This document shows, one piece after another, positions 51,492 to 64,000 of a stretch of 64,000 nucleotides of DNA. Position 1 is the first letter of the stretch; each line of letters opens with the position of its first letter. Under the pieces are notes generated by a model. It saw only the letters and a list, made by a program, of their open reading frames with translations. It did not search any database and was not told the DNA's origin. The DNA comes from Thelonectria olida (lineage: Eukaryota; Ascomycota; Sordariomycetes; Hypocreales; Nectriaceae): positions 1,364,001 through 1,428,000 of the forward strand of contig JAGPYM010000007.1 in assembly GCA_020736575.1 (NCBI GenBank). The letters run 5' to 3'. Made by a program: the position numbers and the translations under genes.

Positions 51492-52223
51492 TTAAACACG
51501 GTTGGCGAAGTTGCCATTCATGTGCATTACGTTGGTAAAGGGCGAGTCCCCAGCCGCGGTCCCCTGCTCCATGGACACCATCAGCTTCCTCATCGACGTT
51601 CCGTTCTGACCACCAGGACCTCTCTGGAGGGCAGTTTCCGCAAACATGCGCAATTGCATGGGGAATTGAGGATCGCCGTAATGCTCAATGACGTCGCTCT
51701 TCTCAATGGCACACTTGAGATTCTGCCAACACTTTTCGTCTAGGCCAAGTCCCTCGCAGGCCTTTCGCTTCTCGGCGTTCCACCAGTCCGGGAGGAGGCC
51801 AGGCCGGCGCTCAGCAGCGTTCAAGAAGCGGCGGAATCCTGGGAGCCCATCGGGGTTGCCACCGTACAAGCCGTCGGCGTCGGCGTTCCCTTCCATGTTG
51901 TAGTCATCCTCGGTCCTGAGACGGTACGCCTCGAGGAGCAGTCTGAAGACGTCGGATTCGGAGCGACCGTGCAGCCAGGTGTTGTTGTCGAGTCGGGTGA
52001 AGGGCTGAGAGATGCCACCATCGAGGCCCTTGGGCGGAGACAGGCTACGGTCGTGTGGAGTGTCGGATTGAGCCCCAGCGGATTTTCCGCAGATCTTCTT
52101 GTGAGCTTTCCAGTCTTTCTTTTGGCATTCTCGGGAGCAGTACGGGGTGTCGCTGCACTTGGCACATCGTTTGATGCTGACTTCCGTGTCAGGTTTCTTG
52201 CAAATGGTGCAGGAGAGTGCCAT
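51492..52223 (-). CDS. MYND-type zinc finger protein
   Basis: Single exon, 243 residues from ATG 52223. The open frame upstream of it reads like 5' leader. Residues 4-42 are a complete MYND finger: CTICKK, then RCAKC, then PYCSRECQKKDWKAHKKIC, supplying the C-x2-C, C-x2-C, C-x3-C and H-x3-C zinc ligands. MYND fingers bind proline-rich partner peptides. The remainder (about residues 80-243) includes a block resembling fungal MYND proteins, LPGFRRFLNAAERRPGLLPD, WWNAEKRKACEGLGL and DVIEHYGDPQFPMQLRMFAE. No SET or catalytic domain. Probable cytosolic or nuclear adaptor; the specific role is unknown. Confidence 0.88.
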   Translation of the reverse strand: MALSCTICKKPDTEVSIKRCAKCSDTPYCSRECQKKDWKAHKKICGKSAGAQSDTPHDRSLSPPKGLDGGISQPFTRLDNNTWLHGRSESDVFRLLLEAYRLRTEDDYNMEGNADADGLYGGNPDGLPGFRRFLNAAERRPGLLPDWWNAEKRKACEGLGLDEKCWQNLKCAIEKSDVIEHYGDPQFPMQLRMFAETALQRGPGGQNGTSMRKLMVSMEQGTAAGDSPFTNVMHMNGNFANRV

Positions 52224-53564
52224 TGCGAAATGTTGGGGCCGAGCTGGGGATGTGGAGGGAGCTGGGGTCTGAGCTTTGATGCGACACGTCGAAGCGCTGT
52301 GATGGAGTATTAGCAAGACGAGACGAGACACGAGCACACTGCGATTTCTTCCCTTTTCAATGCGATTTGAGGCCGACTTGACCTTTTTATAGATGAACAA
52401 CAGGTAGCAGAGCCAGGGGGAACGTGTTTTGCGGCTGGCAGACGGCGTTTGTGTGACGCATGCCCAACGATCGCCGCGTAAACTCCTTTCAACACCCTGT
52501 GCCTCAGGCAGACAGTCACTTTGATGCCTGAGACGGCACCAGTGGTTAGGGGTCTCTTATCTCATTTGATCCCTTGCAGGTCTCTGTCTTCTAGAGGAAA
52601 CACTGCGTGAGAGAGGGTTGATTGGTAGGTGGTGGTCTCGACCATGTAGTTTGAACGGAAACTCATTCACCCGGGCGATCGTTTCCAAGGCAAAAAGCAA
52701 TTATAACCAGCAGGGCCTCCCAGGGGGTTGGTAACGCAAGGGGGATTTTGGGCATAAAAACATAAATAATAATTCCTTATGTTCCTATCAAAGATGTGAT
52801 CAAGTAAATTGGAGCTGTGCGAATGGAACCTTCGTAGATATAGAACATGGAGTGAGCCGTGACTTAAGTTGTTTCTTTTCGTGGCTGCCCGTCTTAGTCT
52901 ATCCGTGTACTTGGTACGAAGAACCTACATCCCAACTGCCCGGAAACCTGCCTTTGCTGCCCGACCTAACAGTACCTCCCTCCCGTATTCGACGATCACT
53001 CTGCAATGCAGCACGAGCTGAGGCACTGCACATGTAACTAGGTACCGAGTCACAATTGGCTCTTTTTGTCAATCCTAACGGTTACTGTTTCCCTCTCTAA
53101 TTGCGGGTTCGTCATTGAAGCTATTCACAAAAGTTTGTCGCTGACCAGCCCAAGTGCATGGTTGCATGTGGTGACATCCCCGGTCTCTCTTGCAACTTCC
53201 CCGAAACTTTGTGAAGGAGCTGAATTACCTACCTGTAGTTAGTACCTATTTACCAATCTGCAGTTCTTAACTAGTTACCTAGGTACGTATGCAATTTGGA
53301 TGAGAATGGAAGCCTTCACCTGGTGCAACTAGAACGCCTGATCACAACTCTCTAGAAGCCAGTCTGCCTGTCTCCAGGCTTTCAGTTGGGCATTTCGGCT
53401 CAGCCACCAGGCGTGCGTGCCATGTGACCAGGCTATCTACCTTCCGAGCAGGAGCTCGCGTCCTGGACGATTTCTTCAATCACGTTCCATTTGACTTCAT
53501 CCCGCTGCAAAGCTTGCCTCCCGCCTGAAATCCAATATTTGCTCCTGGCCAGACACTCCCGCGA
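52224..53564. other. 1.3 kb intergenic stretch
   Basis: MYND promoter at the left, upstream region of the NACHT gene at the right. Around 53230-53290 there are several copies of TACCTA/CTAGGTAC-like short palindromic words, common in fungal intergenic DNA. No gene recognised. Confidence 0.4.
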
Positions 53565-55276
53565 ATGGCTCAACGCCGCATACATGGAATACGCATGAAG
53601 GGCGACGGATCCAGTTCCGTTTATCACAACAACACGTCTTGCGACAGCTCAAATCAATTTAACGGGCCCGTTGAGAATGTTCATCTTTTTTGCAGACGTA
53701 TGTATAGCCTAAACCACACCGTCACTGTTCGATCCCAGGGTAATAGTCACGATTATAAACCTGTTGCCTCTCCCACCAGATCTTCGTTCCTCTAATATTG
53801 ACTTTCCGACTTTTAGGCAGAACAAGCAAGGACGACCGTTGCCTGCAGGACCTGCGCACCACCGACCTCGAGGACGACAAAGTGAGCATCGAAGAAGCAC
53901 AGGATCGCCTCCTGCCAGACGTATCCTGTTGGGTACTCGATAATATCGACTTCAAGCAATGGCGAGACGAGAACAATAGCCGGCTGCTCTTGATCGAGGG
54001 CGGCCGCGGCAAGGGCAAAACAATGCTGCTCTGCGGCATCATCGACGAGTTGCGCCCCGGAACAAAACTGGCGAACAATGAGTTCAGCACGCTCTTATCC
54101 TTCGCTTTCTGCCAGGGCCAAAAGGCCACCAACGTGCTGCGTGGCCTAATCTACTTGCTTGCCTCGCAGCAGCTGTCACTCGTCTCATGCATCCAAAAGA
54201 AATACAACCGGGCAGGAAAGCAACTCTTTGAGGACAGGAATGCCTGGGTGGCCTTGTCAAAGATTCTTCTAAAGATGCTCGAGGACACAAGAAATCAGCA
54301 AGTCTTTCTGATTGTCGACGGAGTCGATCGACTTGGAGCTGACGCGGCTGGGTTTATAAAGCTCGCCCAAAACTCTTGCCAGAGATTTTCACATGTCAAG
54401 TGAATTGTCTCCAGGCGCGAGCCGTGTGGCAAGTTCCGTGACAAGAGTCTCGAAATTTTAAGACAGGAAGGAAGTGTGTGTCTTAAGCTACAAAAAGACA
54501 CTATCTCAGCTGCTGTTAACATATACATCGACCACAAGCTTTCGACGATTGACTGGCTGAAGGATGGCCAGTGGCTCCTGAGGCAAGTCCGAAAAGGAAT
54601 TTGCGATAAGGCTGATGCAAATTTTCTTTGGGTGACGCTCATCTGGGATGATCTGCAGGCCGAGGACCGCTCGAGTGTTCTCTGCATGCTGGAGGATACC
54701 CCGACGAAGTTGGACTGCATGGAGGAACGTTGGAGGGCCAGTGAGTTGCTAAAGGATGGCTACAGGAAATTTGAAGAGTTTCAGAAGACTCCGATCACAA
54801 AGACTCTAGATGATGCTATTAAGAAGTATCTCACGGCTATGGAGGCCTCCAAAGGAGTAAGACCACCTTATAGGATTGGTATGCTCAAAGCCATGGTTGG
54901 CCTCTCCGAGTGTTATCGTGAACTAACGCACCGTAATTGCTTCCAGCCAGTTCAAAAGATCAAGTACCTGGAAACTGCCGAGAAATATAACAAACAAGCT
55001 CTGCAGCTAGCCAAGGCGACTATGAATCAGCCACGGGTCGAGCGAGTGGTGTTGGACGCGGCTGTCTTGTCCGCTAGGAGGGTGGTTCTCGAGCTAAGGT
55101 TAAATCCAGGTAGTCCCGCACGTCTCAAAGACCAGATTGGTGTTGCCTGGAATCATTTGAAGAGTCTTAAGAAAAAGTACGATAGGGCTGGTGATCAAAG
55201 ATTGGCGGATTGGGTTGATGAGTGGTTGGAACAGCTGAAACGAGCACGAATAAGTTATTTTGTATTAGATAGATGA
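53565..55276 (+). pseudogene. NACHT STAND protein with N-terminal amyloid-like motif; interrupted by an in-frame TGA
   Basis: Exons 53565..53697 and 53817..55276; the 119-nt intron has GTATGT and TTTTAG ends. Residues 19-43 form the motif shared with two neighbouring genes (YHNNTSCDSSNQFNGPVENV...). The HET-E-type NACHT entry CLQDLRTTDLEDDK follows, then the P-loop EGGRGKGKTMLL near residues 105-115 (family members usually have GDPGKGKT) and a Walker B VFLIVDGVDRLG near residue 210. At 54401-54403 a TGA replaces the expected Trp of VKWIVSSR, ending the protein at 239 residues; the same frame stays open to 55276 (530 codons in all). The distal part has the NACHT tail TISAAVNIYIDHK and ANFLWVTLIW, then TPR-like helices. 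A weak 63-nt intron (54400..54462, GTGAAT...AAG) could bypass the stop in frame, but it removes conserved sequence. I call it probable pseudogene. Confidence 0.75.
53619..53690 (+). repeat. Amyloid-like motif, receptor copy
   Basis: Encodes residues 19-42 of the NACHT protein. Core: Y-x-N-N-x-S-x-D-S-S-x-Q-F-N-G, followed by a V and VHLF. It aligns with both copies in each of the two downstream genes and is closest to those of the 158-residue protein (SNQFNG versus SRQFNG, VHLF versus VHIF). It sits exactly where NWD2-type receptors carry their single HET-s-like motif. Confidence 0.7.
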
Positions 55277-55427
55277 ATTACGGAAGGCATAAACTGCCTG
55301 CATTAGCTGACAGGAAAGCGCCGATCGAAGAATCGAAGATATGTCACCTAATCCCCATCCACTCTGAAAACACAACCACGAAGAAATGAAAGGAGTCACA
55401 GACTCTGTGCAGGACCTCTTTCTAGTG

Positions 55428-56351
55428 CTAGATCATCATCCCGGGCCCTGGATGGCGTAAATTGGAGCCACCTGTTTGACGGCGGGATGGTAAATTGTGA
55501 TCTTCTTCTGTTGGTTGTGGTGTTCGCCTAACCTTTTGGGTAAGCCACCTCCTCGAGGACGGGACAGCACAGCATATTATTACAAGTAAGACAACTATTC
55601 CGGTAACGACGATACCTGCGATGGACCCAGAAGAGAGCGAGGTAGGTTCGGTAGAGGAGGAAGCAATCGGCAATGGGGTCGGGGTGCCTTCTGTTCGCCC
55701 ACAGGTCGTCAAAGTGGTCAAGGCACTCTCGTCAGCGGGTCGATCCGAAGCGTGCCAATTAATCTGGATTAAAGGCGCATATAGAGTGTACGGGCTATCG
55801 GTTTCTCGGATGGTTAGCTGTGAGAGAGGACCACTGGTGCCGCTCATACATGTAACGATGAGAAGAACGGTGGAAGTCGGGGCGACGGTACAAGTGCCGC
55901 CATTGATGTTTGCGCATTTGTAGCCGCTGGCCATTCATAAACATCAGCATACCCACTAGGACTGAAAAGAAGGGACTACGTAGATAAATGCGTACCTCGG
56001 ACAACATCCCACAGCCGTCTCACCAGTCATCATTGGAAACTGCACCTGCCACTCGCTCTTCCCTCCCGCTGTGGCGCTGCACGCCGACACAAAGCCGCTT
56101 GGGCACACGAGTCCCGGGGAATAGAAGCCCCATCCATTCAGTGTTGGCGAAGAACGTGGTGCACCGTCGGTGGTGGGCGGCCAGCAGGCGGTGTTGTCTT
56201 GTACTCCTGTCTCGGCGCATGCTTGCCCTAACCACGCAATGGTGCAAGTGTCACAGAGCCCAACGGGGCGTGTGCAGCTGGGCTCCGGGGTGAATGTTGC
56301 TGTGAGGGGTCCAAGGATGGGACGAGTCTGGGATGTGATGACGGAGACCAT
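55428..56351 (-). CDS. Cys-rich single-pass membrane protein
   Basis: Exons 56351..55996 and 55926..55428, 284 residues. The intron (GTACGC...CCAG) joins VGCCP to SGYKCANINGG, restoring a typical Cys-rich fungal ectodomain. I start at ATG 56351 (MVSVITSQTRPILG); the frame upstream opens with GTG and no clear signal peptide precedes, so a missed upstream exon is possible. The ectodomain has about a dozen Cys, then a Ser/Thr-rich stalk (PIASSSTEPTSLSSGS), one hydrophobic span (IAGIVVTGIVVLLVIICCAV) near residues 220-240 and a basic cytoplasmic tail (SSRRWLTQKVRR). The design resembles Mid2/Wsc-like surface proteins, but no named domain is recognised. It lies between the NACHT gene and the HeLo-like gene; any functional link is speculation. 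Confidence 0.75.
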
Positions 56352-57226
56352 CTCGCCATTCTTCACGGTACTTGTGTAAAACGCCTTGAATAGTGGCCAT
56401 CAATAATAAGAGGTGGGCCTCGCAGCTTCAAGATAACCTCATCGCCTCTTGATGATTGGGGCAGAAGGAGAGGATTATATATACATCCATGGGCGTAGAT
56501 CGGCGACAAAGCCCTGTTTCTCCCTACCAGTTCCCGAATAGTTTAGGCTCTACAGGCTGTAATACAAAAACTGGAGGTCGCAAAATGCATCTCGCAGGCC
56601 TGCTGGGTTCAGCCTGTGTTGTAGCGGGTCGATGCATTCGCTCAGCCAGTTAACACTCGGTCCTAGGCGCGCCCGCAGATAATTCATGTCAAGATGGGGG
56701 CAGCGGTTACTGATTAGACTTGGTGAGCCCAGTTTGATTTGAAATATGAAAGAGGAGGCAAAAGGCTGATGCGAGGGGCCAATGTGCAGTTTGTACGGGC
56801 GGCTAAGCCAGCCTCACCGTCTCGCATCCCATTCCGGTTCTGTTTGCATTTACAACCGTGACAAGTGAGTCGGTAATTAACAATAGCCTGGCCCTGAACT
56901 CGAATCTGCGTTCAAGGTGTATTCTCTGTTAGTGCAACAGCAGGCTTCGCCTTCTTTTGAGGGGGCTGATTCACAAGTCGACAAGGCAGGCTGTGTTGGA
57001 GAAATGGCCTCGCCCCCCCACAGACCGAAAGGATTGAAGAAATAACCGGTTTTGCCGTTATTTTTTCAGTCATCCTCATCGGCTGAATCGAGCCTCACAA
57101 CAGCGGGATCCCATGTAAACACCCTCAGTTAATGTCCGTAGTTACCGATTTCGCCATCCATCTCGTGCCTCGTTTACTCGTTACCTCAGGCTTGTCCAGA
57201 CCTAGGTTCCTCTAACGAGCGAAATC
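56352..57226. promoter_or_regulatory. Divergent intergenic region before the HeLo-like gene
   Basis: 875 bp separating the minus-strand membrane protein and the plus-strand HeLo-like gene. Should hold both promoters. No supported gene. Confidence 0.45.
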
Positions 57227-58147
57227 ATGGTAATGAAGAATCTGGTTGTATCAAATCCCCCAATCTAACTGCTTGCTCCAGGAAGTTATCGCCTCCGCGG
57301 CCAGTGTCGCTCAATTGCTGAGCCAAACAATTAACCTCGCCGAAAGAATTCTCGACGCTCGACGGACTGTACGCGGCTATCCAAAACTGCTTAAAGAATA
57401 TGAAGATCAGCTCGAAGACCTGAGAAAAACCTTGACTTTGGTCAGGATGGAAAAAGAGCTGCAAACGGCCAATGTCATGGATCAAACTGAGAGAGTTCAC
57501 AGCATCGCACAGGAGCTCCAGTCCGTCCTAGAAGAGATGAGTGAATCTATGGCGAAGAAGAAGATGAGACAGTATTTTCACGCCATAACTTCTGGGAAGC
57601 GGCACGAAAAGGGTATCGCCGAGATACTGGATCGCTTGGATAGAGCAAAGACGGAGCTCCGGACACGGATCTTATTAGTGCACGTTGGCATAACCGGTTC
57701 CTTGAACGGCGGATTCCGAGCCATGTTACCGCTGATTCAGCGCGTTGACCGGAACGTCCAAAGTGTGCTGGGTTCAAGATTACTGGTTTCTTCTCAGCTG
57801 GACGGCAGATGGACCTCCCCAGAAGGTCCGTTCGATGGTACCTACCTTTTTTCTTTTTCTTTATTAGCTAACGCCTCACAGACGATGGGCCTCTTCTTTT
57901 GAACGAGGAGGACTTGAGGGCTATAGGCTGCGACCCTCCCGCTGACACGAGTCCAGGTGAGCGGTCATACGTCGGCAACTTGACCTTTGATCAGGCGCAA
58001 GCGATAAATGGCGATGTCGGGGCTATAAAATGGAACACTGTACCTAAATGCGAATACAGGAAGAATGAAGCGAGGGGTAACAGCTTGCAAGTAAATGGGA
58101 ACGTGGATTTGCAGTCATTCCAGCAATTAATCGCTGGGCGCAGGTGA
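57227..58147 (+). CDS. HeLo-like domain protein with two C-terminal amyloid-like motifs (candidate cell-death effector)
   Basis: Three exons: 57227..57229 (the ATG alone), 57282..57837 and 57882..58147, 274 residues. The first intron directly follows the start codon (GTAATG, ATCTAACT branch, CCAG) and restores MEVIASAASVAQLLSQTINL, a standard start of fungal HeLo-like/STAND N-terminal domains. Residues 1-150 are helical: the early KLLKEYEDQLEDLRKTL helix, then EKGIAEILDRLDRAKTELRT and ILLVHVGITGSLNGGF. A linker leads to two motif copies at about 215-237 and 244-266, 29 residues apart: YVGNLTFDQAQAINGDVG and YRKNEARGNSLQVNGNVD. HeLo-type effectors with two C-terminal amyloid motifs are templated by a NACHT receptor carrying one copy and then attack membranes. 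That function is inferred. The frame is intact. Confidence 0.82.
57965..58120 (+). repeat. Two amyloid-like motifs, HeLo effector copies
   Basis: Tandem pseudo-repeats of about 23 residues with a 29-residue period. Shared positions are the leading Tyr, an Asn at +3, the Q-x-N-G block at about +10 to +13 and a Val two residues later, with an aromatic near the end (Trp237, Phe266). The second copy is the better match to the receptor motif. Confidence 0.7.
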
Positions 58148-58280
58148 GGCAGCCTTTTGATGTATCCCAACCGGCGAGACGCCCGGAGTGTTGGCTAGAT
58201 AAATCTCAATTCAAGACGCAGCAAAAGCTTCAATGCGGCTATATAATAATATGCAATCATGCCCATGAAGAGAGCCAGTC

Positions 58281-58834
58281 TCACTTCTGGAAAATGTGAA
58301 CGGCTGGGACAAGACCGTTGACCTGTAAGCTCCTGTCCCTCGATTCATTCCCAGTGTAGGTGGCTTTTCCTTTGGGCATAGGAGGTGGGATATGACCATC
58401 GTAAAGAGTTCCATTGAACTGTCTGGACTCATCGCGCGAGATATTTTCGGAATAGTCCGTTTTACCGCATGTCTGGTCGTCCGCGCTTGACATGGCCTTG
58501 CAATCATCTTCTAGATGTGGTGTTCGTAGACCCTGATTCTCATAGATATCCGAACTAAACACACCTCGAAATTGACCGTGTATCGGGGGCGGGAAGCGCT
58601 GGAGTGGATGAGGAAGAATTTGTTTCTTGTCCTCGTTGATCATGAGCGAGTCTTTGCCTGTGGCCGATTGAGTGACGGTGTATGGCACAGTCTGGTCGCC
58701 TGGACACGGATCCGTTAGCAGAGTGCTTTGCCAATACGTTGAGCTGATCAGAAGGCCGGAGAGGAGGATAACATACCGCGTTTGGCTGGAATGTTCCGGT
58801 TCGCTTCAAGTTGAAATCCCGCATTTAGGCTCAT
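58281..58834 (-). CDS. 158-residue protein with two C-terminal amyloid-like motifs, no recognised effector domain
   Basis: Exons 58834..58777 and 58699..58281. The 77-nt intron has GTATGT, a TGCTAAC branch site and CCAG, and gives AKRGDQTVPYTVTQ. Residues 1-100 are polar, without signal peptide, membrane span or HeLo helices. Residues 101-156 carry two motif copies 32 residues apart: YSENISRDESRQFNGTLY and YTGNESRDRSLQVNGLVP, the second ending VHIF. Weaker echoes occur at residues 26-47 (YTVTQSATGKDSLMIN) and perhaps 60-80, so the protein may consist largely of degenerate motif copies. Convergent with the HeLo-like gene, 133 bp between stops. It could be a decoy, an inhibitor, a truncated effector or an adaptor; the sequence alone does not decide. 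Confidence 0.65.
58290..58457 (-). repeat. Two amyloid-like motifs, orphan protein copies
   Basis: Pseudo-repeats at residues 101-123 and 133-156. Both have Y-x2-N-x-S-R-D-x-S-x-Q-x-N-G; the linker between is Pro/Gly/Lys-rich (PPPMPKGKA). These copies are the most similar to the receptor motif in the NACHT gene. Confidence 0.7.
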
Positions 58835-59487: not shown

Positions 59488-60555
59488 TTAAAAGTCAAAT
59501 GGCTCAATGTCAACAGTCTTGTTCTCCTCCAAGGCGTCCTTGATTGCCTGGCAAACCGCCATGGCCGCCAACCCCGCCTCAGCCGAACAGCTGGGACCCT
59601 CCTCACCTTGAATAACCCTTACAAAGTGGCTTAATTGCAGTTCAAAGGGGACCCCGTCCGGCACAGGGACTTGGTCTTTGACAAGCTCAGAATGCCATGA
59701 CTTTTGCGTGCCCTTGTATGACCACGTCGTCATGTCAGGCACGCTGAGAGACCCTTCCGTTCCGAATACCCGGTAAAAGTCTTGACCGGACTTGGGAATC
59801 AAAGGGTTTTCTCCCGTGCCGGCCTCAAAGTTGTATGGGGAGGGGAGGTTGTCCGATACCAGGAAGCTGCCGACAGCTCCAGACTTGAAGCGGATGGTCA
59901 GCACGGCGCCCTCCTCGGCATCGAAGCCGCGTTGAGAAATGGTCTTTTCCGCGTGCACCCGAACAATGGGACCGAAGAGGTAGTGAAGCAAGTCGACCTC
60001 GTGGATCATGTTGATCAAGACGACGCCGCCCGTCTTGTCTCGTCGCCATGTCGCAGGTGGGTCGAAGTAATCGAGCGGTTTGAAGGTTGCCCAGATGCCG
60101 TTGATGGCGACAATATTCCCCAGTGAGCCAGACGAGACAATTTCTTTTGCCTTGACCATGTACGGGTTGAAGCGGCGATGGTGTCCAACGATTGCCTTGA
60201 CGTTTGACTTTTTTAGATGGTCGACAAGGTCTTTTCCACTCTGAATGTCGGTGCTGACGGGCTTCTCAATCAGCACATGAACGCCTCCTGCAGATAATTC
60301 TCGTGCTAGTGGGACGTGGGTGTGATTTGGGGTGCAGATGATGGCGGCGTCTGGCTTGTCGGGAGATGCGAGCAGTTCGGCGACGGACTTGTAGTATGCG
60401 GTGCCCAATTCCTCGGCCAGCTTTTGGCCTGCAGGCATGAGATCGACAATGGCAGCGAGGTCGGCATCGTTGCTCTCTACGACGGTTTTCGCATGGCGAG
60501 GACCGATGAGGCCTACGCCGACGACGGCAACTTTGACCTTTGGTGGTGTGGACAT
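59488..60555 (-). CDS. Gfo/Idh/MocA-family NAD(P)-dependent oxidoreductase
   Basis: Single exon, 355 residues from ATG 60555 (MSTPPKVKVAVVG); the 40 in-frame codons upstream look like leader. Rossmann motif VAVVGVGLIGPRHAKTV at residues 9-25, IICTPNHTHVPLA near residue 73 and the family EKPVS motif near residue 100 (catalytic Lys region). The C-terminal domain has GHHRRFNPY and GGVVLINMIHEVDLLHYLFG, with the His/Asp pair used in sugar or inositol dehydrogenases. Typical substrates are sugars, inositols or related polyols. The closest-looking relatives by feel are bacterial-type dehydrogenases, so horizontal origin is possible but untested. Confidence 0.9.
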   Translation of the reverse strand: MSTPPKVKVAVVGVGLIGPRHAKTVVESNDADLAAIVDLMPAGQKLAEELGTAYYKSVAELLASPDKPDAAIICTPNHTHVPLARELSAGGVHVLIEKPVSTDIQSGKDLVDHLKKSNVKAIVGHHRRFNPYMVKAKEIVSSGSLGNIVAINGIWATFKPLDYFDPPATWRRDKTGGVVLINMIHEVDLLHYLFGPIVRVHAEKTISQRGFDAEEGAVLTIRFKSGAVGSFLVSDNLPSPYNFEAGTGENPLIPKSGQDFYRVFGTEGSLSVPDMTTWSYKGTQKSWHSELVKDQVPVPDGVPFELQLSHFVRVIQGEEGPSCSAEAGLAAMAVCQAIKDALEENKTVDIEPFDF

Positions 60556-61110
60556 GGTGTAGGTAGGGACGAATAGATGACGGGAGTTGGTGTTTCCAGT
60601 AGCAAACTCGGGGATAGAAATAGCTGAATTGATCGCAGTGAGATCCCAGTCACACACGCTCTCTCCTTGTGTCATTCCCTCTTCATAATGGATGTAAATG
60701 AGGTTATATACCCCGTCACAGAAACACCATCATCATCTCGTTCCGATGCCGGTTTGATGCCAAAATGTTTTCCCACCTCCACAGTGGGGGAGCTGTCGTT
60801 CTCAATTGAACGCGGGGTACGCGGGGTAATTAATTGGATCATGTGCTGCTTGGAAGAGTGTTTGAGTTCTTGTTAGAGTCGCCTGGTAAACATTCTGCCG
60901 ACTTAAATATTGAGTCGCTCGTCACGCGGTTCAATCGACGAGACCAGAGCACTTTCAGGACTCGACAGTTGAAGGTGGAACTATGGCGACAATGTTCCAT
61001 TCGCTATCATTGAAGACGGGCTTGTCCATATCTCATTATTGCAGTCCATGATGGCGGCTATCCGTGTCCTTCAGAATTACTACCCGGAGAACCTATTCTA
61101 ACGACACCCA
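60556..61110. promoter_or_regulatory. Promoter region of the Gfo/Idh/MocA gene
   Basis: 555 bp between two tandem minus-strand genes; contains the oxidoreductase promoter and the antiporter 3' end. No gene seen. Confidence 0.4.
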
Positions 61111-63798
61111 TTAATCAACAGTCGCATGCGACTCGAGACTAAGTTTTCTCTTGCCCGCCACCTTCGATTGCCTCGACTGCACCACAAGCAAACTCATATT
61201 CGTCGCGCCCGCCTTTCTAATCTCTCCAACTAGGCTCGAAGCGACAACGCCCAACGAGGCACCGAGACCATGAGAGCCCGAACCCGAGGCCTCAGTAGTT
61301 GACTTGGGCACGGAGCGACCGACCAGAAACGTGGTGGAATGGCCATCTTGAGATTGGGAGCCGAGCAGATGTTGCGTGAATGATCCGGCATGACGGTCGA
61401 CCTCGGTGAAGACGACCTTGTGCATGATGCCTTCGGGGACATGGGACTTGACGCGCTCGAACTGAGTATCGTATTCGCCATGCGTATCCTTCAGAGAGAC
61501 GATCTGGGCATGGGTAGTCTCGTTGTGGGCGAATTGCAATGCCAGTCGCACGGCGTAGAGATCATCCATGCTTCCAGTGTACAGAGCGCAGACCTTCTTC
61601 TTGCGTTGCCTGTCAGCCGATTGGAATTTTACCGCGGTCCTTCCATGCGTCTCGGAACGGCTTCGAGTCGACGGCTGTCTTGACAGATGCCCGCCCGTTT
61701 CGCCATCTCCATAGTCAAGGAGGGTATCGTCGACGAATACGCCCACCCCAGTCACAGATCGGGCCTGGTCAAAGATCGAATGAACAAGATTGGCAAATTC
61801 ACCATTGGCAAGAGGATCGCCTCTTGAAGCGCTGTAAAACGAAGGTAGTTCAGACACGGTCCCCGTTTCACTCCATGGGATGAGAATCAGGTCGGCCTCA
61901 ATCTTGGCAGCTTCGGTGGCGAGCGTGTCGGCGAACGAGTCCTCTGGCACGACTGCGATTTGTCCCGTAACCACGACGTCGCGCGACGTATTGACTGCAG
62001 ACGTGCCCAACGCCTTGATGATCGGGTCATGGCCGGCATACTCTTCGATTTCCGAGACTTTCATGACGGACGAGTTGCGCTCAGTGAGTCCAATGAGACG
62101 ACAACCGTGGATGTTCAGAAGCTGTCGAGGTTGCTCCGACGGCTCTTCGCCTGCCAAAGCCAAGGCAGGATGCGCGACCTCTTTCTCGCCCTGAGGCTGT
62201 GGTTGGGCATTTCTCTCGGCAGTGTGGTTAGCTGTGAAGAATGGAATCGTGGACAAGAGGCTAGAGAGCCCGTCGGTTCTGAGATAGACGAGAAGGCGGG
62301 TCGCGATATCCTTTTGTTCGTGAGTAGGCTCGTCGTCATGGTTGTGTGGCTCTAGCGAATTCCCTTCCCAGTCAATCTTGCCCTGCTTCCAGAGTTCCAG
62401 CTTCCTCTGATACCAAGGTGGATAGAGCCACGAGGTTAATGGCGCCGTCAAAAATGTCGTTACGAGAGCCATGACAACAAATATCGTAAAGGTCCGGGTG
62501 CTCAGAATCTTGGCTTGGAGGCCGATGTTGAGGACGATGAGTTCCACAAGACCTTTGCATGACATGAGAGTGCCGATGGTGACGGATTCGCGCCAGACCA
62601 ATCCATTGAGACGAGCGCCGAGTGTGCCTCCAAACAATTTGCTGAAGAAGGCAGTTACAATGACTGCAATAACATAGCCCCAAATGACACCGCTATCGAG
62701 CAGCGACAGATTGGTGTTGATGCCAGACAGGGCAAAGAACAGAGGCACGAAGAGGGTCGAAATGAGATCTTCAATCTTCTCAGTGAGCTTGATGGCAAAG
62801 CCACCCTCATGCGGACACATCAAACCAACCATAAAGGCGCCGAAGATAGAGTGAACGCCAATAATACTAGTAAAGAAGGCGGAAGCAAAGACCATCAGAA
62901 TCGTCAAGGCCACGACGGCCTCGCTCGGCCCATTCTCGAGGCTGCGAGTCTTTCGAAGCACCCACATGAAGCAAGGCCGCACAGCGAATGCAAGGAACAA
63001 GGCGTATCCGACGGATACGAGCAAGATCCAGACTGTGGTCAAGCCGGCTCCGGAATTGACCAAAGTGACGCAGAGGGCGAGGAGGACCCATCCGACCACG
63101 TCGTTGATGATGCCCGAGGTGAGGACGATGACGCCAACGTTTGTGTTGAGCAGTTTGAGAGCAGTTAGAATGCGACACAGGACTGGAAACGCGGTGATTG
63201 CAATGGCGATGCCGATGAAAAGAGCAAAGACTGCAAAGCTGATGGGCGCCAATTCCGGATCGTCGCCGAATTCGTTATAAAGACCGTACGCGAGCGCCAC
63301 GCCGCAGCCAAAGGGAATGGCCATGTCCAAGGTCGCGACACCAACGGCGATGCGCCAATTGCGCAAGAGATACATCAGATTGATCTCCATGCCGACTAGG
63401 AAGAGGTATAGAATGAGGCCAATGTTGGCCGCAAGCCGGAAGGGAGCCATGCCATTCTTTGGGAAAATGGCATCTGTGAAGCCTGGGACACGACCTAACA
63501 CGGATGGGCCGAGAATGATGCCCTGAGATGGAGGGTTAGCAATTGATGAGCGGATGTTTGCATGACTTTGTGAGCTTACCGTAATCACTTCGGCAATGAC
63601 TCTGGGTTCCCTGATCTTGCCCAACGGCCAATAAAGGAGTCTGGTGAGGGAAATGACAATTGTAGCTTGGATGATGAACAGAGTGATGGGATCGGAAGGA
63701 TTGTAGACGGTGGGGTTGAGGCCCTCGAAGATGCCCCCTTGGGATGGCGCCCTGGCAGCCGTTGCCGAAGCAGGTGAAGCGGTGCTCGTCGTCGACAT
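61111..63798 (-). CDS. KHA1: K+/H+ antiporter, KHA1-type CPA2
   Basis: Exons 63798..63580 and 63522..61111, 876 residues, close to yeast Kha1 (873). The 57-nt intron (GTAAGC, GCTAAC branch, CTCAG) has a length divisible by three and no stop, so the frame runs straight through it; splicing restores the conserved AEVITGIILGPSVLG. About 12 membrane spans occupy residues 45-440, including the ITAFPVLCRIL and TSGIINDVVGWVLLALC segments that hold the ion-binding Asp region of CPA2 exchangers, and GVHSIFGAFMVGLMCPHEGG. The C-terminal half is cytosolic, with two universal-stress-like segments. Family role: electroneutral K+ for H+ exchange in Golgi or endosomal membranes, controlling lumenal pH. Confidence 0.93.
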   Translation of the reverse strand: MSTTSTASPASATAARAPSQGGIFEGLNPTVYNPSDPITLFIIQATIVISLTRLLYWPLGKIREPRVIAEVITVSSQSHANIRSSIANPPSQGIILGPSVLGRVPGFTDAIFPKNGMAPFRLAANIGLILYLFLVGMEINLMYLLRNWRIAVGVATLDMAIPFGCGVALAYGLYNEFGDDPELAPISFAVFALFIGIAIAITAFPVLCRILTALKLLNTNVGVIVLTSGIINDVVGWVLLALCVTLVNSGAGLTTVWILLVSVGYALFLAFAVRPCFMWVLRKTRSLENGPSEAVVALTILMVFASAFFTSIIGVHSIFGAFMVGLMCPHEGGFAIKLTEKIEDLISTLFVPLFFALSGINTNLSLLDSGVIWGYVIAVIVTAFFSKLFGGTLGARLNGLVWRESVTIGTLMSCKGLVELIVLNIGLQAKILSTRTFTIFVVMALVTTFLTAPLTSWLYPPWYQRKLELWKQGKIDWEGNSLEPHNHDDEPTHEQKDIATRLLVYLRTDGLSSLLSTIPFFTANHTAERNAQPQPQGEKEVAHPALALAGEEPSEQPRQLLNIHGCRLIGLTERNSSVMKVSEIEEYAGHDPIIKALGTSAVNTSRDVVVTGQIAVVPEDSFADTLATEAAKIEADLILIPWSETGTVSELPSFYSASRGDPLANGEFANLVHSIFDQARSVTGVGVFVDDTLLDYGDGETGGHLSRQPSTRSRSETHGRTAVKFQSADRQRKKKVCALYTGSMDDLYAVRLALQFAHNETTHAQIVSLKDTHGEYDTQFERVKSHVPEGIMHKVVFTEVDRHAGSFTQHLLGSQSQDGHSTTFLVGRSVPKSTTEASGSGSHGLGASLGVVASSLVGEIRKAGATNMSLLVVQSRQSKVAGKRKLSLESHATVD

Positions 63799-64000
63799 GT
63801 TGGCTGATGGCCGCGCAAAGCGAAGCTGCGAATTGCTCGCGTTTAACCACGCACTGCAGTAATGGAGAGAAGAAGCTGGACTGACGCGAACGAGGAGGGG
63901 ATACGAGTTGATAAGAACGACGGCACAGCCCCCGATCAAAGTGTAGTGTCACATGTCTCGAACTCCATTGCACTGAACAAAGCCGCTATTCTTTTAAAGA
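63799..64000. promoter_or_regulatory. 5' flank of the KHA1-like gene
   Basis: The antiporter frame remains open for 47 codons upstream of the chosen ATG but this stretch lacks conservation-like features and is probably leader. The window ends before the full promoter. Confidence 0.35.

Follow-up and report, generated by a model that had tools for sequence, protein, structure and literature searches.

The window analysed here is a stretch of 64,000 nucleotides (G000:C133:1364001-1428000) from the genome of Thelonectria olida, a fungus of the Nectriaceae in the Hypocreales, with a genome of 52.5 Mb in 165 contigs. Five copies of one short motif were found in it, spread over three genes. These genes encode a NACHT receptor of the NOD-like receptor (NLR) kind, a SesA/HeLo-like protein that is probably a cell-death effector (called the effector below) and a protein of 158 amino acids, called the third protein below. 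One copy lies at the N-terminus of the receptor, and two copies lie at the C-terminus of each of the other two proteins (Table 1). A sequence-only reading of the same DNA had proposed the five copies at these places. The positions were confirmed. Each copy, when omitted in turn from the profile, still ranked first among the 73,681 17-mers that can be read without a stop in the six frames of the window. Its lead over the runner-up was large for four copies and small for H1 (15.0 against 13.0 bits). The pattern Y..N.......[QA].NG, which was written post hoc with the copies known, occurred five times, and 200 shuffles gave 0.01 occurrences on average. A chance origin of the five-copy motif was taken as excluded. 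Within the window, the motif was confined to the receptor, the effector and the third gene.

The five copies were aligned without gaps. In the 21-position numbering of the HET-s-related amyloid motifs (HRAM), the pattern was Y5, N8, S/T/A10, D/G12, S/A14, Q/A16, F/V/I17, N18, G19 and V/L21, where Y5, N8, N18 and G19 were invariant. The core was S-x-Q-[FVI]-N-G, and Q-[FVI]-N-G was present in four of the five copies. The receptor copy r0 carried one charged residue in 21, and the paired copies carried four to seven. Conservation of the motif was also observed at the codon level. The proportion of nonsynonymous differences (pN) was lower than that of synonymous differences (pS) in all 10 pairs that the copies form. 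When H2 was compared with T2, all five of the codons 15-19 differed and the residues were unchanged. These two copies were linked by an inverted DNA repeat (36 nt, 75%), which suggested that an inverted duplication had probably copied the paired module. The identity of r0 over 27 columns was 44% with T2, 37% with T1, 26% with H2 and 22% with H1. By this measure, the receptor motif resembled the copies of the third protein more closely than those of the effector.

The motif profile was also run on 42 loci beyond the window (30 NACHT places, 10 PF11558 places, L004 and L005), and the best score there was 16.7 bits, in L011. Genome queries with the effector motif exon and with the motif region of the third protein gave no other place at E < 0.1. 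The best others had E 0.97 and 0.14, and they looked unrelated when viewed as reading frames. With receptor exon 1 as query, its own place was the only genomic match at E ≤ 10. The lack of other places at E < 0.1 in these queries fits the expectation for an insulated channel. When the effector and the two motif pairs were compared with the sequences of the Protein Data Bank, only weak unrelated matches were obtained.

Table 1. Gene parts and motif copies of the locus, in window positions
Feature	Position	Strand	Content
Receptor exon 1	53565-53697	+	Spliced model; GT-AG intron 53698-53816; carries the N-terminal signalling segment
Receptor exon 2 to in-frame TGA	53817-54403	+	NACHT/NPHP3_N region with P-loop; PF24883, PF05729
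Receptor frame past the stop	54404-55276	+	Remaining NACHT region and all-helical sensor; alignment with P0006, P0007, P0053
Effector gene, three exons	57227-57229 + 57282-57837 + 57882-58147	+	SesA/HeLo-like domain, then two motif copies
Third gene, two exons, one 77-nt intron	58834 down to 58281	-	158 aa; two C-terminal motif copies
Motif copy r0	53610-53672	+	Receptor residues 16-36, N-terminus
Motif copy H1	57956-58018	+	Effector C-terminus
Motif copy H2	58043-58105	+	Effector, 8 residues past H1
Motif copy T1	58404-58466	-	Third protein C-terminus
Motif copy T2	58308-58370	-	Third protein, 11 residues past T1

The three genes and their neighbours

The NACHT region of the receptor scored above the Pfam cut-off (PF24883, 3e-21 and 76.8 bits; PF05729, 3.5e-10 and 40.4 bits), and the genome held at least 152 NPHP3_N matches. 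For the receptor part after the stop, an AlphaFold2 (AF2) model was obtained in which the predicted local distance difference test (pLDDT) was ~90 from residue 111, with an all-helical C-terminal domain. Foldseek searches with this domain gave weak matches to tetratricopeptide repeats, 14-3-3 and designed helical repeats, and none at E 0.001 or better. No paralogue of the sensor was found in the genome, where 11 further matches stopped at residues 109-113 of 290. Relatives of the receptor were taken from 120 listed of 1,687 matches, and the motif scan covered these 120 and P0001-P0005. Two of the 120 matched most of the receptor including its N-terminal side. In P0006 of Scytalidium lignicola (B7463_g7301; 42% identity, 98% coverage), a SesA domain was fused ahead of the same receptor backbone, whereas the SesA-like domain is encoded by a separate gene here. 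P0053, a NACHT protein of Tricladium varicosporioides (33% identity, 94% coverage), was without an effector domain. The fused and split forms fit the published alternative of an effector in cis or in trans to its receptor (PMC3321046; published work is used here to the extent of its accessible text). In 10 + 10 listed NLR relatives, known-looking motifs stood ahead of the same NACHT start.

The effector product aligned along its whole length, at 99% identity, with the Thelonectria olida protein deposited as B0T10DRAFT_458140 (P0001), which was spliced four residues shorter than our model. The protein had earlier been read as HeLo-like. The domain matched SesA (PF17107, E 8.6e-5, below the Pfam cut-off) better than HeLo. 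A SesA match at E ≤ 1 was obtained for three of five effector family members. The hhalign comparison of these five members gave E 0.013 over 51 columns with two SesA domains, and E 0.2 with the genome's own HET-s homologue. SesA has been described as remotely homologous to the HeLo and HeLo-like domains (PMC5485727). Effector residues 3-21 were hydrophobic (Kyte-Doolittle mean 1.27) and would fit a membrane-acting N-terminal helix. The AF2 model of the effector, built with five sequences, had a pLDDT of 45.9, which was too poor to use, and gave no usable structure at the motif pair. The effector-domain relatives P0002-P0005 were metagenome fragments with 44-76% identity over 49-70% of the domain. 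P0001 and P0006 were not alike in BLASTP. A second stretch resembling the effector domain was seen on the same contig (L004, G000:C133:1637708-1637971), with 37% identity and two internal stops.

The third gene and the effector gene were arranged tail to tail. The third protein had no domain recognised by Pfam, was not SesB-like and was lacking from the protein database. Exon 2 of its gene was the sole open frame of six. Its codon score was 0.077, where 52 training open reading frames had a mean of 0.111 (standard deviation 0.042, minimum 0.044) and 177 wrong-frame stretches had a mean of -0.084 (standard deviation 0.116, maximum 0.158). This score was supportive of coding and not decisive. 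Since pN was lower than pS and codons 15-19 of H2 and T2 changed only synonymously, we argue that this frame codes for protein and has retained its motif. The motif-bearing partners named in the passages covered here carry HeLo, HeLo-like, SesA, SesB, Goodbye, NAD or PNP-UDP domains (PMC3321046). No motif-bearing partner without an effector domain was met in the literature passages covered (including PMC9815663, PMC7889193, PMC12881547 and PMC12258605), with supplements outside the scope and the motif letters not searched.

The remaining neighbours were on the minus strand. The reading-frame pair at 55428-56399 had no Pfam match and no motif copy, and by eye it looked like a single-span membrane protein rich in Ser/Thr. 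Ordinary genes were seen for a MYND-finger protein (51492-52556), a GFO/IDH/MocA oxidoreductase (59488-60729) and a Na+/H+ exchanger (61111-63948).

Comparison with described motif classes and loci

Fungal amyloid motifs have been grouped into the HRAM, sigma, PP and PUASM 1-2 families and reportedly act two or three together (PMC12261475). The features given for HRAM are Gly19, hydrophobic residues at 5, 8, 10, 16 and 18, a preference for R/K15, a 21-residue register and a loop of 6-18 residues. Exceptions are T at 10, Q16 as the mark of HRAM5 and Q18 in HRAM4 (PMC4518210). In our case, Gly19 was present in five of five copies. The layout was also that of HRAM, with one copy on the NLR and two at the C-terminus of each partner, where the loop was 8 residues long in the effector and 11 in the third protein. 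Position 5 was Tyr in every copy, and position 10 was Ser, Thr or Ala. However, the hydrophobic residues were replaced at position 8 (Asn, 5/5), position 18 (Asn, 5/5) and position 16 (Gln in four copies and Ala in one), and R/K15 was seen in T1 only. No protein of the window matched PF11558 at E ≤ 1, a profile that was matched by 38 of 155 double-repeat proteins in published work (PMC4518210). Joint permutation against the HRAM1 repeats of this genome gave p 0.14. Canonical HRAM membership was rejected on the polar positions 8, 16 and 18, the missing PF11558 match and this p-value. The sequence-only reading had proposed the HET-s/NWD2 (HRAM) design. Its one-plus-two layout held as the best reading, and an assignment of the motif to HRAM was not supported. 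A further candidate, receptor residues 6-22 (53580-53630) overlapping r0, reached 9.1 bits and rank 11 in the window when scored against canonical r0 motifs; it was without Gly19 and was rejected.

The PP and sigma motifs were compared using the consensus strings printed in PMC3321046. PP is a single pseudopalindromic copy, FxGx(x)NxGLQLxGxNxGxL (PMC3321046). The full motif was not found as one copy, and its flanking F, G and N were missing, while its core GLQLxG resembled SLQVNG of H2 and T2. The core gave p 0.0006 against the copies, with the anchor chosen by eye, and full PP was weaker (p 0.029 for the 17-aa form and 0.061 for the 18-aa form). The sigma motif consists of three units in the order AAA, ABA or ABB, where A is GxGxQFNxx and B is GGTQNINT (PMC3321046). 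The copies had Q-F/V-N without GGTQN and without G-x-G, and joint permutation with sigma A gave p 0.00085, with the Q anchor chosen by eye. PP core and sigma A fitted the copies better than the HRAM1 repeats of this genome. The permutation p-values lean towards resemblance, because the Q anchor was chosen by eye and the reference sets were picked post hoc; the 10 + 10 reference r0 motifs were selected with expressions composed once the N-termini had been read. Judged by its letters, the motif fits no described class compared here; it was left unassigned, and it combines an HRAM-like layout with a PP/sigma-like core.

Besides the receptor relatives P0006 and P0053, three known systems were closest. 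The pairs of HET-S/NWD2 and HRAM1-5 (PMC4518210, PMC3321046) share close linkage, a NACHT receptor with one N-terminal copy and a HeLo-related effector with two C-terminal copies, as well as the 21-residue register, Gly19 and the loop of 6-18 residues. Unlike these pairs, the present locus has polar residues at 8, 16 and 18, no PF11558 match, a SesA-like domain, a second motif-bearing partner and an intervening reading frame. The sigma (ses) locus of Nectria haematococca belongs to the same fungal family and shares the SesA-like effector, the NACHT receptor, the two motif-bearing partners and the Q-F-N core. In contrast, the present locus lacks the three-fold A/B order, GGTQN and a lipase as its third protein. 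The PP locus of Chaetomium globosum (HELLP, SBP, PNT1) likewise combines one receptor with two motif-bearing partners. This arrangement is known for both PP and sigma (SesA, SesB, HET-eN) (PMC5485727, PMC7885112). It was suggested earlier that the motif subclass and the presence of two partners might be undescribed. The motif was left unassigned among the classes compared, and two motif-bearing partners were already known. What may be new is the unassigned motif, and also a partner that has two copies of it and no recognised domain.

Six places elsewhere in this genome were above the PF11558 cut-off (L038-L043, on contigs C131, C120, C81, C164, C85 and C88). At the C131 place, an open HET-s homologue had as its neighbour an NLR whose N-terminal motif looked canonical, and the C85 place had a stop in frame. 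Because of the pair on C131, canonical HET-s-type signalling probably exists in this genome next to the system described here.

Proposed signalling model and alternatives

We read the locus as an NLR-effector amyloid-templating system with the HET-s/NWD2 layout that would signal through the short motif, with a probability of about 70%. This reading is supported by the motif being far above chance and confined to three genes of the window, and by the receptor combining NACHT with a motif at the N-terminus, where the 10 + 10 listed relatives carry theirs. The loops between the paired C-terminal copies are within the published range, and r0 is low in charge, as described for receptor motifs (PMC4518210). 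P0006 has a fused SesA domain while the separate effector here matches SesA, which is in line with the same reading. The lower pN in all pairs and the synonymous changes between H2 and T2 also argue for it.

The shared motif, its layout, the receptor domains and the conserved motif codons were observed directly. From work on HET-s/NWD2, PP and sigma, we infer oligomerisation, amyloid templating, cell death and any role of the third protein. A ligand would be sensed by the C-terminal helical domain of the receptor, and the receptor would oligomerise through NACHT. The single N-terminal r0 copies would then gather into a beta-rich nucleus, which would template the paired copies on the SesA/HeLo-like effector. 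Templating would switch on the N-terminal domain of the effector and lead to membrane damage. The third protein, with the same paired module, could be drawn into the polymer as a second effector, adaptor or damper. Among its possible roles, we would place second effector or adaptor first, motif-only amplifier or damper next, and remnant last.

Several observations weigh against this reading. The in-frame TGA at 54401-54403 breaks the receptor frame in this strain, and the minus-strand reading-frame pair sits between receptor and effector, so that the two are near neighbours and not adjacent. The SesA match of the effector reached 23.1 bits, where the Pfam gathering score is 26.3. The relatives P0002-P0005 end before the motif exon and give no view of the conservation of the effector copies, and the third protein had no homologue (one candidate, nothing scored at E ≤ 10). 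Synonymous sites were near saturation in most pairs of copies. A motif-like N-terminus was found in P0053 only among the 120 receptor relatives listed of 1,687. Its residues 13-29 (QVNNTSDGRVNLINGNG) scored 17.5 bits with the motif profile, a weak likeness, and a chance stretch in P0067 scored the same, so that it is suggestive through its place alone.

The motif could instead be a strongly divergent HRAM, nearest to HRAM5 or NLR12/HRAM3-like, in an ordinary relative of HET-s/NWD2. We consider this possible, though on balance doubtful. The 21-position register, Gly19 in every copy, the two effector repeats with one receptor copy and the loop lengths are as expected for it, and Gln16 in four of the five copies is the mark of HRAM5. 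With a profile of 10 NLR12-like r0 motifs (I-x-N-N-x-F-G-D-N type), the copies ranked 19 to 565 of 73,685, and joint column permutation gave p 0.004. However, p was 0.066 with the canonical r0 profile, hhalign with 13 NLR12-like motifs was not significant (E 0.14), and the polar positions 8, 16 and 18, R/K15 in one copy, the missing PF11558 match and the HRAM1 result stand against this assignment. A divergent sigma (ses) locus, with a SesA effector, a NACHT receptor and a third partner bearing a sigma-like motif, and belonging to the family of the original ses locus, is rather unlikely. SesA is the best domain match of the effector, r0 and T1 read D-x-S-x-Q-F-N in place of sigma A (the p-value above, with its anchor chosen by eye), and such loci typically unite SesA with a second partner and an NLR in a triad (PMC3321046). 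Sigma-like linkers were also seen in two other NLR loci of this genome, L009 (TGNQFNA with GGTQN) and L011 (GSGKQFN, after a SesA-like domain). However, the units here are of 21 residues, single on the receptor and paired on either partner, and not three-fold A/B submotifs. The glycines of A are replaced by D/G and S/A, GGTQN is absent from all five copies, and the third protein is not SesB-like.

It may also be that the locus is decaying, with a receptor pseudogene, a third gene left from a duplicated effector tail and no working pathway in this strain, a view that we take seriously and still find somewhat doubtful. The receptor lacks a continuous frame to its C-terminal sensor, H2 and T2 lie in inverted-duplicate DNA, neither a domain nor a homologue was found for the third protein, and the other effector-like copy on the contig, L004, has two stops. 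The stop in the receptor is unlikely to be removed by an intron. Of the 23 frame-keeping GT-AG stretches (45-160 nt) spanning the stop, none had a donor that agrees with the rule GTRNGT, and the alignment with relatives continues directly past the TGA. However, the stop is single, codon use is coding-like on either side of it, and the effector is open and annotated. In addition, the motif codons of the third gene keep residues and not synonymous sites, and of the six frames across its exon 2 only the modelled one is open. The shared motif might also be a homotypic interaction element that forms no amyloid, or a repeat that duplication has multiplied and that plays no part in signalling, which we regard as improbable. 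This would agree with the charged residues in the paired copies (4 to 7 of 21) and with the AF2 model, which was of no use at the motif pair. Against this stand the placement at the receptor N-terminus and partner C-termini, the fact that fungi are known to use this layout for amyloids and the Q-[FVI]-N-G core in four copies. If the locus is an amyloid-templating system, as we read it, the interrupted receptor frame implies that this strain may have an inactive or polymorphic pathway.

A further proposal is made tentatively, and we hold it to be unlikely. The motif would represent a further class for amyloid signalling, in which the core is polar (N8-x-S10-x-D12-x-S14-x-Q16-[FVI]-N18-G19) and the layout HRAM-like, and the 158-residue protein would be a motif-only regulator amplifying or damping the receptor-effector polymer. 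Animal CARD-only and PYD-only proteins are the counterpart of such a regulator. If this is true, a motif class mixing PP/sigma-like and HRAM-like core features would be added to those described, and it would test how much sequence change one amyloid-templating layout tolerates. It would also test why parallel pathways in one fungus avoid cross-talk, in a genome with six PF11558 places. These circuits would also gain a new type of component, namely a motif-bearing partner that lacks an effector domain.

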